Shown here piece by piece: positions 5,735 through 21,682 of a stretch of DNA of 25,011 nt (position 1 is the stretch's first letter; each line of letters opens with the position of its first letter). Position numbers and translations under genes: made by a program. This stretch comes from a virus. The DNA lies in IMG/VR virus record IMGVR_UViG_3300033143_003987, positions 1 through 25,011 of that record. One strand, written 5' to 3'. Below the pieces are notes generated by a model. It was not told the origin of the DNA. It searched no databases and saw only the letters and a list, made by a program, of their open reading frames with translations.

Positions 5735-6607
5735 TTACTTTCCTCTTAATTTGGGGTACGGAATAATTACCGACCCATTTTTCTCAACAAACATTCTTTT
5801 AAGTCTGCGGGTATCCCGCTTGTCTGTTCCTAATATATAGGCATATTTATGTTTGGGTTGAATGTCCCTAGAGACACAGCCTGCCATCACCGTTTTGGAT
5901 TTTTCTCGTAAATCTTTTTCTACCGGGTCTGGTATATTCTCCCAATACACTTTATCACCTTTACTCCAATCGGTTCCCCATTCCACTCCTAAGTCTTTAG
6001 CATATCTTTTGTATGCTGACCGGGAACGAAAACTCCTATCGGAAATCCATTTACCTGATACCGGTGACCTGTACTGTTTTTTGGCACCAAACTTCTGTCC
6101 CAAATAGATAAAATTACAAGCCTGATATATGGTACCCAACTCTTTTGCTTCTACATCAGAATACGCTGTAAACAGTTTATAGGGGGTATTGGCAGCACTC
6201 CACCTGATACTATACATAATCAGCGATGAAGCCAGTCCCTTCGGTGAGAAGCTAATACAGGCACCCCTGCTTATAAGCCTCTCCATCTGTTTGGTGTCTT
6301 CCCCCAACAACTTAGAAAACGCTGTCGGCATATCATGAAAGACCACCCCGGATAAAATCCCTTTATAGGTAGCGGTGAACAAATGGGTGGGATAATTTGA
6401 TACCGTACCCAACCACTCGTGCCGCTCTATAAATTGTTTCGCTTCACCGAACATGGATTTATCAACAGACAAATCATAAGCACGAAAGGTATAGTCTGGT
6501 ACCCGTAAAGATTCCAATTCTTCCTTATCAAAACCACTGTTGGCAATATCATCAGTTAAATTGCTCAGTCGTATATCATATTGCCAACAATGATTTTTAT
6601 CGTACAT
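5735..6607 (-). CDS. Mom-like GNAT-fold DNA modification enzyme candidate
   Basis: This 290-aa protein matches, from memory, the fold pattern of Mu Mom and related phage proteins: ISRGACISF (Arg114), then TAYSD (Asp151) and GTIYQACNFIYLG (Tyr161). The spacing of Arg, Asp and Tyr (37 and 10 residues) is nearly that of the Arg/Asp/Tyr set reported for Mom. Mom converts adenine in phage DNA to a carbamoylmethyl (acetamido) form that blocks many restriction enzymes. There is an extra N-terminal region (1-60) and a basic C-terminal extension (180-290) with RSFRSRSAYKRY that may bind DNA. The ribosome-binding site is weak; mom in Mu is also translationally limited. The general GNAT-like call is firmer than DNA modification itself. 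Confidence 0.6.
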   Translation of the reverse strand: MYDKNHCWQYDIRLSNLTDDIANSGFDKEELESLRVPDYTFRAYDLSVDKSMFGEAKQFIERHEWLGTVSNYPTHLFTATYKGILSGVVFHDMPTAFSKLLGEDTKQMERLISRGACISFSPKGLASSLIMYSIRWSAANTPYKLFTAYSDVEAKELGTIYQACNFIYLGQKFGAKKQYRSPVSGKWISDRSFRSRSAYKRYAKDLGVEWGTDWSKGDKVYWENIPDPVEKDLREKSKTVMAGCVSRDIQPKHKYAYILGTDKRDTRRLKRMFVEKNGSVIIPYPKLRGK

Positions 6608-6619
6608 AATAATTAAAGT

Positions 6620-7369
6620 TTACACCAACCGGTTTGAAAGATATGACAATACAAACTCCCGCTCATTTTTGTCACGGAATTTTGTGCTCCCTACAACTTT
6701 TTGAATTGCATCCACAGCCTCCATAGGAGTGTAGGATTTTTCGTCCTTTTTCTGTGGCTCTTTAGACTCAAAAAGCGTTTCTTGGGTGACAACTTCTTTC
6801 TTATTGGTCACCGGTATCACAGACGTTCTTTTTTGTGTCACCGATTGTGTAACTTTACTCAGGTTGTTTTTAGCGCAACCATTATCAAAGTACAGTTTAT
6901 CCTTACCAACAACAGGCCGGATTTTTATCTGCCAATCAGACTTTCTGGCAACCAGCCGTTTAAATTTGTCTTCTACTTCAGACAACTGTTTCCGGGGTAC
7001 CCGGAAAGGTACCGGGTTCCTTTTATAATCCCGAAATATTTTCTGGGATAAGGCAACCTGATAATCCTCTGCCATATCTCTAAAATACCCGGCATCATTA
7101 GTATTAAGACCTTTTGTGTTAGCTTGGAAATCATCAATAAACAAAGCCTCCATTACCTTGAGTTCATCAGCATTATCGGAATCGTGTAAAACAGAAACAG
7201 TCCAATCCGACATACGGGGACATTCTTTCATGTAAGAAGCCAGTTTATTTTTTCCCTTGCCAGCATTTGTTACCAGTGCTGCAAGCCGGAACTCTAATGT
7301 CTTTTCTGTGTGACCCACAAAGGCCACACCATATGGAACACATTCCATGATATATACAACACCCATCAT
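6620..7369 (-). CDS. GIY-YIG domain protein, possibly a homing-type nuclease (249 aa)
   Basis: The N-terminal 100 residues follow the GIY-YIG layout: GVVYIMEC, then VAFVGHTE where the YIG element is altered, an FRLAAL segment with the conserved Arg position, and VMEALFIDDF with the conserved Glu, followed by LNTNDAG. The remaining 150 residues are basic and low in hydrophobics, with a helical C-terminus (PMEAVDAIQKVV), and probably bind DNA. The start at 7369 follows AGGGTGAAT; a GTG at 7375 is possible. It ends 12 bases before the Mom-like gene, so both are probably on one message. The altered YIG element may mean reduced nuclease activity. Confidence 0.7.
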   Translation of the reverse strand: MMGVVYIMECVPYGVAFVGHTEKTLEFRLAALVTNAGKGKNKLASYMKECPRMSDWTVSVLHDSDNADELKVMEALFIDDFQANTKGLNTNDAGYFRDMAEDYQVALSQKIFRDYKRNPVPFRVPRKQLSEVEDKFKRLVARKSDWQIKIRPVVGKDKLYFDNGCAKNNLSKVTQSVTQKRTSVIPVTNKKEVVTQETLFESKEPQKKDEKSYTPMEAVDAIQKVVGSTKFRDKNEREFVLSYLSNRLV

Positions 7370-7396
7370 ATTCACCCTATATAATTTAAAATTAGT

Positions 7397-7473
7397 GGGA
7401 GCCTTATTGGATTATAAGGAAAGGCTCCCGTTAAAACCTCAGTTGCGATAGCGGATTAGGCTACCATTGCAAC
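7397..7473 (-). ncRNA. Two strong hairpins upstream of the GIY-YIG gene
   Basis: GGGAGCCTT (7397-7405) pairs perfectly with 7421-7429, with an alternative inner CCTTAT/ATAAGG stem. A second two-part hairpin pairs 7442-7446 with 7469-7473 and 7449-7452 with 7460-7463 around a 7-nt loop. Another stem (7588-7594/7611-7617) follows the truncated tRNA. The 7370-7615 gap holds no gene. These may be a terminator, a leader or a stable RNA. Confidence 0.4.
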
Positions 7474-7615
7474 GTCATAAACATCGTCATTTGCGTTTAT
7501 ATTTATTTTCACCGATTTTAACGTGTCTGTAACGTACCACGTATAGTCCATCTATCTTCGGTAGGTAGTCGATTCCAGAACAAGCCCCCTAAGCACACTT
7601 ATTAAAATACGCTTA

Positions 7616-7663
7616 GGTGGACTAGATGGGATTCGAACCCATGTGTTACCATCCTATTTTCAA
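7616..7663 (-). pseudogene. 3' half of a tRNA-Phe, cut at the anticodon loop
   Basis: The minus strand reads TTGAAAA (a tRNA-Phe GAA anticodon loop), then TAGGA, a variable region, a perfect T-arm ATGGG-TTCGAAT-CCCAT, the acceptor strand CTAGTCC, A73 and CC followed by T instead of CCA. No 5' half (expected to start GGACTAG and end TCCTA) adjoins it. Instead an HNH endonuclease frame ends eight bases upstream. I read this as a tRNA destroyed by insertion or deletion at the anticodon loop. Confidence 0.6.
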
Positions 7664-7670
7664 TTTCATA

Positions 7671-7976
7671 CTATAATAAATTTTGTATAATATCAATATA
7701 CTCCAATATTACGGTTTCGTCAAATCTATTTTTTGCATGATTAGTTGTTACACTAATCCATTGTAAATTACCTCTCATGTATCCCAAGGAAGAATCTTTT
7801 CTATCTAACGAAGCCGAATAATTCGGATTAGTCACTTTTGATTCTAATACAAGCAATACCCCTGTAACAGCACATTTCCTTTCTTGTTCGTCCCACAAGG
7901 TCTTTAAATATTGTTCATCTACATTATAATCTTTGTTGTTTTCTATGTGCCTATTTCTAACCAACAACTTTATCAT
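7671..7976 (-). CDS. HNH endonuclease-like protein (101 aa)
   Basis: Residues 34-85 carry a phage HNH-type core: CAVTG, then SASLDRKDSSLGYMRGNLQWIS and a closing TNHAKNRF. This pattern is common in small phage homing nucleases, where the SLDRID..GY..GN unit is conserved. The protein is AT-rich in codons compared with neighbours and lacks a clear ribosome-binding site. It abuts the half tRNA-Phe at 7616-7663, which suggests that it arrived by homing into a tRNA gene. Whether it is active is unknown; the usual first His of the motif is replaced by Arg in SLDRK. Confidence 0.7.
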   Translation of the reverse strand: MIKLLVRNRHIENNKDYNVDEQYLKTLWDEQERKCAVTGVLLVLESKVTNPNYSASLDRKDSSLGYMRGNLQWISVTTNHAKNRFDETVILEYIDIIQNLL

Positions 7977-20559: not shown

Positions 20560-21540
20560 TCAATCGCGTAATTCAGCGTACTCTTGTAATGAATACAATC
20601 CCGCGACCGTAGACAGCTCTTCAGCCTCTACCACAAAAGTCTTCCCTTTAACCTTGGTGAAATAGGTACCAGTCTTGCCCCATTTTACCCGGCCAACATT
20701 ATCACGCTTACCAAACCCCGGATGCGCCTTGGGACATTTATTGGTACCGATAAAATAGCCTTTGTTAGTACCCTTGTCGATAAACATAACCGCGTCTTGG
20801 TCATATTTGAATCCAAGTTTACGCATGTCAGCGACCAGCTTACCACTACCCTTTCGGTCAACAACAAAGAAACCGGGTTCCAGTACAACCTTCTGGTCTT
20901 CCTTTTTTGCTTTGAGGTTTTCAATAAAGCCCCCATCGGACTTCACCACATCATACCCCAAGGATTTAATCCCGGTCAGCAGTTGCTTGTTACGGGTAAG
21001 ATTCTCGGAGCGAGTATATTCTTTACCCTCTCCACAGTCTCGGGAATCACGGAACGCTGTTATCACAGCCACATCATGATTGTTCATATCCTCTTCAGGA
21101 TTGTCCACCTTTTCATTAATAGATTCAGTCATACCGAATTTCAACTCCGTAACAGTAAAAGAAAACATTTTGTCGGTCTTTAGAACCAACACCTTCACCG
21201 GTGAATGAGGACCAGAGAACCGATACTTCTCGGCCAGTTCAGCCCATTTAGACAGGACTGCTTTTTCTCTTCGTGTCCACCTTTCAAGGGTAACAGACCA
21301 GAATCTACCATAAAACCGAATACGAATCCAACCCTTTCCGACTAAATTTCGTATCAATTCCTCTCTGGCTTCACCATCCCGGCCAACTTGTTCGCCATAT
21401 TTCTCATAAACCTTGGCTATACTTTCCTTGGTTAATCCGAATTTTGCCGGGGATTTCACCACAGCAGTAATATGGTCGGTAACACCTATCTGGACAATTT
21501 TTCCAGAAGGTTCTATCCAATAAGCATCATACTGAGCCAT
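20560..21540 (-). CDS. DUF3293-like protein (326 aa)
   Basis: The N-terminal part (MAQYDAYWIEPSGKIVQI ... HITAVVKSPAKFGLT ... GWIRIRFYGRFW) is a domain I recall from large phage proteins. The C-terminal half reads AVITAFRDSRD..., NKQLLTGIKSLGYDVVKSDGGFIEN..., EPGFFVVDRKGSGKLVADMRKLGFKYDQDAVMFI, the DUF3293 pattern. The role of these proteins is unknown. The ATG at 21540 has GAGGAAGATTTTG before it and overlaps the upstream zinc-ribbon gene by 14 bases. It leads an operon to the endolysin, kinase and phosphatase. Confidence 0.7.
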   Translation of the reverse strand: MAQYDAYWIEPSGKIVQIGVTDHITAVVKSPAKFGLTKESIAKVYEKYGEQVGRDGEAREELIRNLVGKGWIRIRFYGRFWSVTLERWTRREKAVLSKWAELAEKYRFSGPHSPVKVLVLKTDKMFSFTVTELKFGMTESINEKVDNPEEDMNNHDVAVITAFRDSRDCGEGKEYTRSENLTRNKQLLTGIKSLGYDVVKSDGGFIENLKAKKEDQKVVLEPGFFVVDRKGSGKLVADMRKLGFKYDQDAVMFIDKGTNKGYFIGTNKCPKAHPGFGKRDNVGRVKWGKTGTYFTKVKGKTFVVEAEELSTVAGLYSLQEYAELRD

Positions 21541-21682
21541 CAAAATCTTCCTCTTGTTCGACTTCAATGTCTATGCTACCACAATTAGGACAATACTCAA
21601 CCACAAATTCCCCCACTACCCAATCTGGTTTCGTCACTTCAAATACCGCTTCACAACTATTACATTCCAGCCTATGCTTCAT
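21527..21682 (-). CDS. Small zinc-ribbon protein (51 aa)
   Basis: The frame MKHRLECNSCEAVFEV ... EYCPNCGSIDIEVEQEED has CNSC (residues 7-10) and CPNC (residues 32-35), a clear zinc ribbon, then an acidic tail. Its ATG overlaps the upstream stop as ATGA and its end overlaps the DUF3293-like start by 14 bases. It could act as a small transcription or translation factor of the phage, but this is inference. Confidence 0.78.
   Translation of the reverse strand: MKHRLECNSCEAVFEVTKPDWVVGEFVVEYCPNCGSIDIEVEQEEDFDGSV

Follow-up and report, generated by a model that had tools for sequence, protein, structure and literature searches.

A Mom-type gene beside a nuclease gene

The Mom protein of bacteriophage Mu places a chemical tag on the DNA of its phage, which is thereby shielded from cutting by bacteria. 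In the window analyzed here (the whole stretch of DNA, a virus record of 25,011 bases), an open reading frame (ORF) at 5735..6607 on the (-) strand encodes a protein resembling this enzyme, and a gene for a GIY-YIG-type protein lies immediately upstream. Such a locus raises two questions, namely whether the protein truly belongs to the Mom family, and whether the adjacent nuclease gene is its matched partner or an independent neighbor.

Family assignment and predicted fold

Counted from its ATG, the ORF encodes 290 amino acids. The Pfam Mom profile PF25680 matches the protein with 42.3 bits (E 8.8e-11; curated cut-off 27.1 bits) and phrog_1384 (PHROG 1384, "Mom-like DNA modification protein") matches it with an E-value of 3e-16, both scores lying far beyond chance. 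No match was returned for this protein by PADLOC, and comparison of the window DNA with phage records gave no close DNA match. The initial annotation had recognized a Mom-like enzyme from Arg114, Asp151 and Tyr161 together with a GTIYQA segment. The residues are as stated, the segment occupying positions 158-163, and the two profiles, the alignment and the predicted fold all agree with that reading. To this list can be added S127, which aligns with S124 of Mu Mom, the residue mutated in PDB 8bv8 ("inactive mutant S124A"). Taken together, R111, S124, D149 and Y159 of Mu Mom (sequence from NC_000929) align with R114, S127, D151 and Y161 of the window protein, which are its predicted, putative catalytic residues. 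We take this set to be that of the Mu Mom literature, corresponding to R101, S114, D139 and Y149 in the 231-residue numbering.

Across 34 aligned sequences, R114, S127, D151, G158, the block Y161-F166 (to which position 167 is given as the exception in one alignment), Y168 and G170 are invariant. The same is true in the C-terminal part of K252, H253, Y255, Y284 and P285, which fall within a KHxY...YPK motif spanning residues 252-286.

An AlphaFold2 model built from 33 aligned sequences has a mean pLDDT of 90.7 and a pTM of 0.85, and its GNAT core is predicted confidently. The comparison of a predicted structure with Mom, which the initial annotation had proposed, singles out 8bv8 (Mu Mom S124A) as the top PDB match, both in Foldseek (7.7e-8) and in VIA-align (Z 16.4, rmsd 3.4 over 185 residues), with about 15% overall identity in the structural alignment. 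In a library of viral structures, the best match is the "Mom" of Salmonella phage FSL SP-031. An acyl-CoA site is thus a prediction from the GNAT fold, and at that level the outcome that the initial annotation had named as refuting, a fold lacking such a site, was not seen.

Enzymes of the GNAT type have diverse substrates, and the model can be aligned with hundreds of GNAT chains. It has to be considered, then, that this Mom-fold acyltransferase might act on a protein, an RNA or a small molecule instead of on phage DNA. Against this, the next-best GNAT enzymes in VIA-align reach only Z 12.9, placing Mu Mom 3.5 Z units above all others, and two features in common with Mu, the R/S/D/Y residues and the YQAxNF motif, are invariant. 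A substrate other than phage DNA is thus very improbable. Mom-family DNA modification is strongly supported, because sequence, active-site residues and predicted fold point the same way, and the gene encodes a genuine relative of Mu Mom, adding one member to an already known family.

N-terminal arm, insert and C-terminal segment

The initial annotation had also credited the protein with a large basic extension absent from Mu Mom, a description that for the most part does not hold. The C-terminal KHKYAYILG...YPK segment of the window protein aligns with the C terminus of Mu Mom, which likewise ends in YPK, and it is the Mu protein that is the more basic, with a net charge of +19 over 241 residues (+11 within residues 171-241) vs. 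+12 for the window protein. What does differ is an N-terminal arm and part of an insert. The arm (residues 1-36) is acidic, with a net charge of -4, and is missing from Mu Mom; the insert (residues 176-250) is mildly basic (net +6), and Mu Mom lacks part of it. Arm and insert recur regularly in the long-form relatives from viral contigs and are shared by dozens of phage relatives. Since both differ from Mu, the specificity for base or sequence could differ as well. Acidic arm, insert and KHxY...YPK motif are therefore the parts that separate the long form from Mu Mom or link it to it, and the window protein is a well-supported addition to this large and mostly unannotated long form of the family.

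The upstream GIY-YIG gene

The gene preceding that of Mom on the same strand is listed as an ORF at 6620..7375 (-) opening with a GTG at 7375; the ATG at 7369 is the likely start, giving a gene at 6620..7369 (-). The GIY-YIG domain sits at the N terminus of its product. Matches to PF01541 are borderline, with 22.2 bits for the protein and 24.2 bits in the genome scan for a cut-off of 22.6. An alignment with two other GIY-YIG proteins shows Arg, Glu and Asn at the catalytic positions, and Phe in place of the Tyr of the second motif. On this basis, the gene can be described as that of a GIY-YIG-type nuclease and a candidate homing-type endonuclease. Relatives of the protein were found neither in the phage nor in the viral-contig collections, PDB sequences gave no convincing match, and PADLOC returned only a weak match to UzuA (E 0.0081). 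A single-sequence AlphaFold model was unusable (pLDDT 38.7).

That Mom follows the GIY-YIG protein on one message, as previously proposed, is partly borne out: the nuclease gene precedes that of Mom on one strand, 12 nt separate it from the Mom ATG, and no terminator-like site was found on that strand. The shared message itself is no more than plausible, and the argument carries little weight, because the likely genes of the stretch all share one strand. The two genes are possibly cotranscribed.

Mom neighborhoods and the question of a nuclease partner

The partnership idea amounts to a two-part, restriction-like system, in which Mom would mark the phage DNA and the GIY-YIG protein would destroy unmodified DNA of the host or of rival phages. 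The tight spacing of the two ORFs on one strand speaks in its favor, as do Mom proteins of other phages that are fused to DUF7487 and PD-(D/E)XK domains. Several contigs (L015, L020, L085 and others) encode such fusions, about 650 amino acids in length, in which DUF7487 repeats and a PD-(D/E)XK-like segment accompany a long-form Mom domain at the C terminus. Pfam matches identify the DUF7487 repeats and the Mom domain, and the nuclease segment was read from the sequence (PDFY...IVEIKS). Jumbo-phage Mom domains fused to REase-fold domains have been predicted to play this same restriction-like role (Iyer et al., 2021, PMC7824862). The idea of combining Mom with a nuclease is therefore already known, and the window is no example of the fused form, no nuclease domain being found within its Mom ORF.

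The neighborhoods of other Mom genes tell against a matched pair. Among 120 Mom-bearing records (26 + 44 + 50, long and short forms together), a GIY-YIG gene within 5 kb of Mom can be found in the window only, the nearest one in any other record lying 7.5 kb away. Because many of the surveyed sequences are short fragments and some nearly duplicate one another, the survey may miss distant genes, although most adjacent ones would show. Mom relatives mostly stand alone, many of them in replication, nucleotide or methylase neighborhoods. Next to long-form Mom genes are found those for DNA polymerase A, DnaE and ribonucleotide reductase, for an N6/N4 DNA methylase and DNA polymerase B, and GroEL-like genes, the last read from sequence. 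A nuclease partner kept beside Mom across relatives was not seen in the 120 records.

Phylogeny leads to the same view. In a tree of 101 rows, the window protein belongs to a group of 49 stand-alone phage Mom proteins (branch value 99), and the fusions form a single clade (98) from which it is excluded. An earlier tree of 35 rows had joined the window protein, that of Vibrio phage 501E54-1 and the nuclease fusions in what looked like a nuclease-linked subclade, which dissolved once sequences were added. With, moreover, a GIY-YIG protein devoid of relatives in the phage and viral-contig collections and carrying Phe for the second-motif Tyr, a two-part system is unlikely. The matching nuclease that would destroy unmodified DNA, as the initial annotation had envisaged, is not borne out by a pairing unique to the window among these records, and the GIY-YIG gene looks like a chance neighbor of Mom. 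Adjacency to a nuclease gene calls for a check of relatives before a restriction pair is assumed. Most likely, the GIY-YIG gene encodes a homing-type nuclease that is independent of Mom and was acquired sporadically.

Mom genes in other genomes and mobile elements

Various arrangements of Mom genes were encountered in the same searches. Tandem pairs, in which a long-form Mom lies beside a more distant paralogue, occur in L028 (7133-7942 and 7926-8903, (+) strand, by sequence) and in L211 (5035-5580, by Pfam); in L028 the pair is preceded by a 2OG-Fe(II) oxygenase-like gene (24.9 bits, cut-off 27). In L185 (5193-6137, (+) strand), a PAPS-reductase-like gene (58.9 bits) lies directly downstream of a long-form Mom gene. 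The accessory genes of Charybdis elements include both PAPS-reductase-like and MOM-like types.

The most surprising by-find is that of Mom-carrying elements in Bdellovibrionota. A Mom match was obtained in 17 of 369 genomes of this group, several of the copies containing stops. In L104-L107, L117-L122 and L135-L137, mostly metagenome-assembled genomes (MAGs), long-form Mom carries an HTH_17 (excisionase-like) domain fused to its C terminus, one or two tyrosine recombinase genes come next, and coding sequences with Rhs-type repeats are often adjacent; in L105 and L135, a gene for an FtsK-like ATPase lies upstream as well. The array has the appearance of a mobile element. In MAGs of Oligoflexia and Bacteriovoracales (L108:3730-6019 and L109:3-2458), the combination of Mom, HTH_17 and recombinase is arranged in a second way, with Mom and the HTH_17-type domain in separate ORFs and a single tyrosine recombinase gene. 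A literature search for the Bdellovibrionota element found no description of it. The Charybdis elements, whose "MOM-like" genes have been published, were considered and are a different element.

With regard to the window, it can be asked whether the GIY-YIG and Mom genes travel together as a homing or mobile unit, in which Mom would be cargo protecting the recipient copy of the target. The adjacency of the two genes is compatible with this, HNH-type homing genes lie near a few other Mom genes (0.35 to 3 kb away in four records; an HNH_3/AP2 endonuclease in Vibrio phage 501E54-1), and the Bdellovibrionota relatives are located in tyrosine-recombinase elements. Most Mom relatives, however, have no adjacent nuclease gene. 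A search for an empty site in ten contigs sharing a gene with the window provided no related phage with such a site, only that gene or little more being shared, with no synteny and no Mom. We therefore consider such a unit improbable. A broader speculation, to which we likewise give little credence, is that long-form Mom is a modification module repeatedly recruited by selfish DNA, beside or fused to GIY-YIG, HNH and PD-(D/E)XK nucleases or tandem tyrosine recombinases. The DNA of the element itself would be marked in this way, making the action of its nuclease or recombinase selective, and the window pair would be a minimal two-gene version.

Other features of the window

A 335-residue protein encoded at 20560..21567 (-) has a SAM-lyase-like C-terminal domain (PF23780, 35.9 bits, cut-off 28). 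Judging from this match, the phage possibly has in it an anti-restriction function in addition to Mom. SAM depletion together with a SAM-independent self-protection by Mom would be a coherent pairing, a link that we infer. Upstream of the GIY-YIG gene, a permuted (two-piece) tmRNA can be found at 7456..7675 (-) with RF04321 (79.5 bits, gathering score 47) and ARAGORN, the latter predicting the tag ANDDVYDVAMVA. Two-piece tmRNAs are known from marine phages such as Melnitz (PMC9004378); here the tmRNA is context, outside any Mom system. ARAGORN also identifies 20 tRNA genes among small ORFs between 293 and 14055 (-), including three adjacent tRNA-Leu genes, and Rfam places 16 tRNAs of the window above threshold.

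Proposed function

The locus is probably best explained by a stand-alone, long-form Mom serving as an anti-restriction DNA modifier of a tailed phage, beside an independent, sporadic homing-type nuclease gene. Family, residues and fold can be read from the protein itself; its timing, substrate and donor can only be proposed, the last two, like the protection conferred, from Mu Mom. The enzyme would presumably be made during infection. By analogy with Mu, it may use a CoA-type donor to attach a small acyl-derived group to adenines of the phage DNA at their N6 position, and this DNA would then escape cutting by host restriction enzymes. If long-form Mom proteins are active, many environmental phages would carry an adenine modification resisting common restriction enzymes, and this modification could affect base calling in sequencing.

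Comparison with known systems

The window protein shares with Mu Mom (NP_050657; PDB 8bv8) the Mom domain, the fold, the R/S/D/Y set, the YQAxNF motif and a basic C-terminal segment ending in YPK. It differs by its low identity, by its acidic N-terminal arm (HCWQYDIR) and by a longer insert before the C-terminal motif, Mu Mom being more basic overall. Moreover, no Com gene was recognized upstream of the window Mom gene, the GIY-YIG gene being found there instead.

Among phage proteins, tblastn revealed weaker relatives, annotated as Mom-like, in Klebsiella phages and cyanophages. The "Mom-like DNA modification" proteins of Klebsiella phages RaK2 and K64-1 share the Mom core with the window protein, but the identity is low, at about 30%, and covers half of the protein. 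A full-length relative of the long form, with 53% identity, is held by Vibrio phage 501E54-1 (CAH9014377, annotated as "conserved hypothetical protein"). There, a 55-residue ORF and the HNH_3/AP2 endonuclease gene, not a GIY-YIG gene, lie upstream of Mom and, unlike the window, the region contains no tRNA or tmRNA. Finally, the DUF7487-PD-(D/E)XK-Mom fusions resemble the window protein by their long-form Mom domain (about 43-48% identity), while in these proteins, as in the REase-fold fusions of jumbo phages (PMC7824862), the nuclease is part of the same polypeptide.
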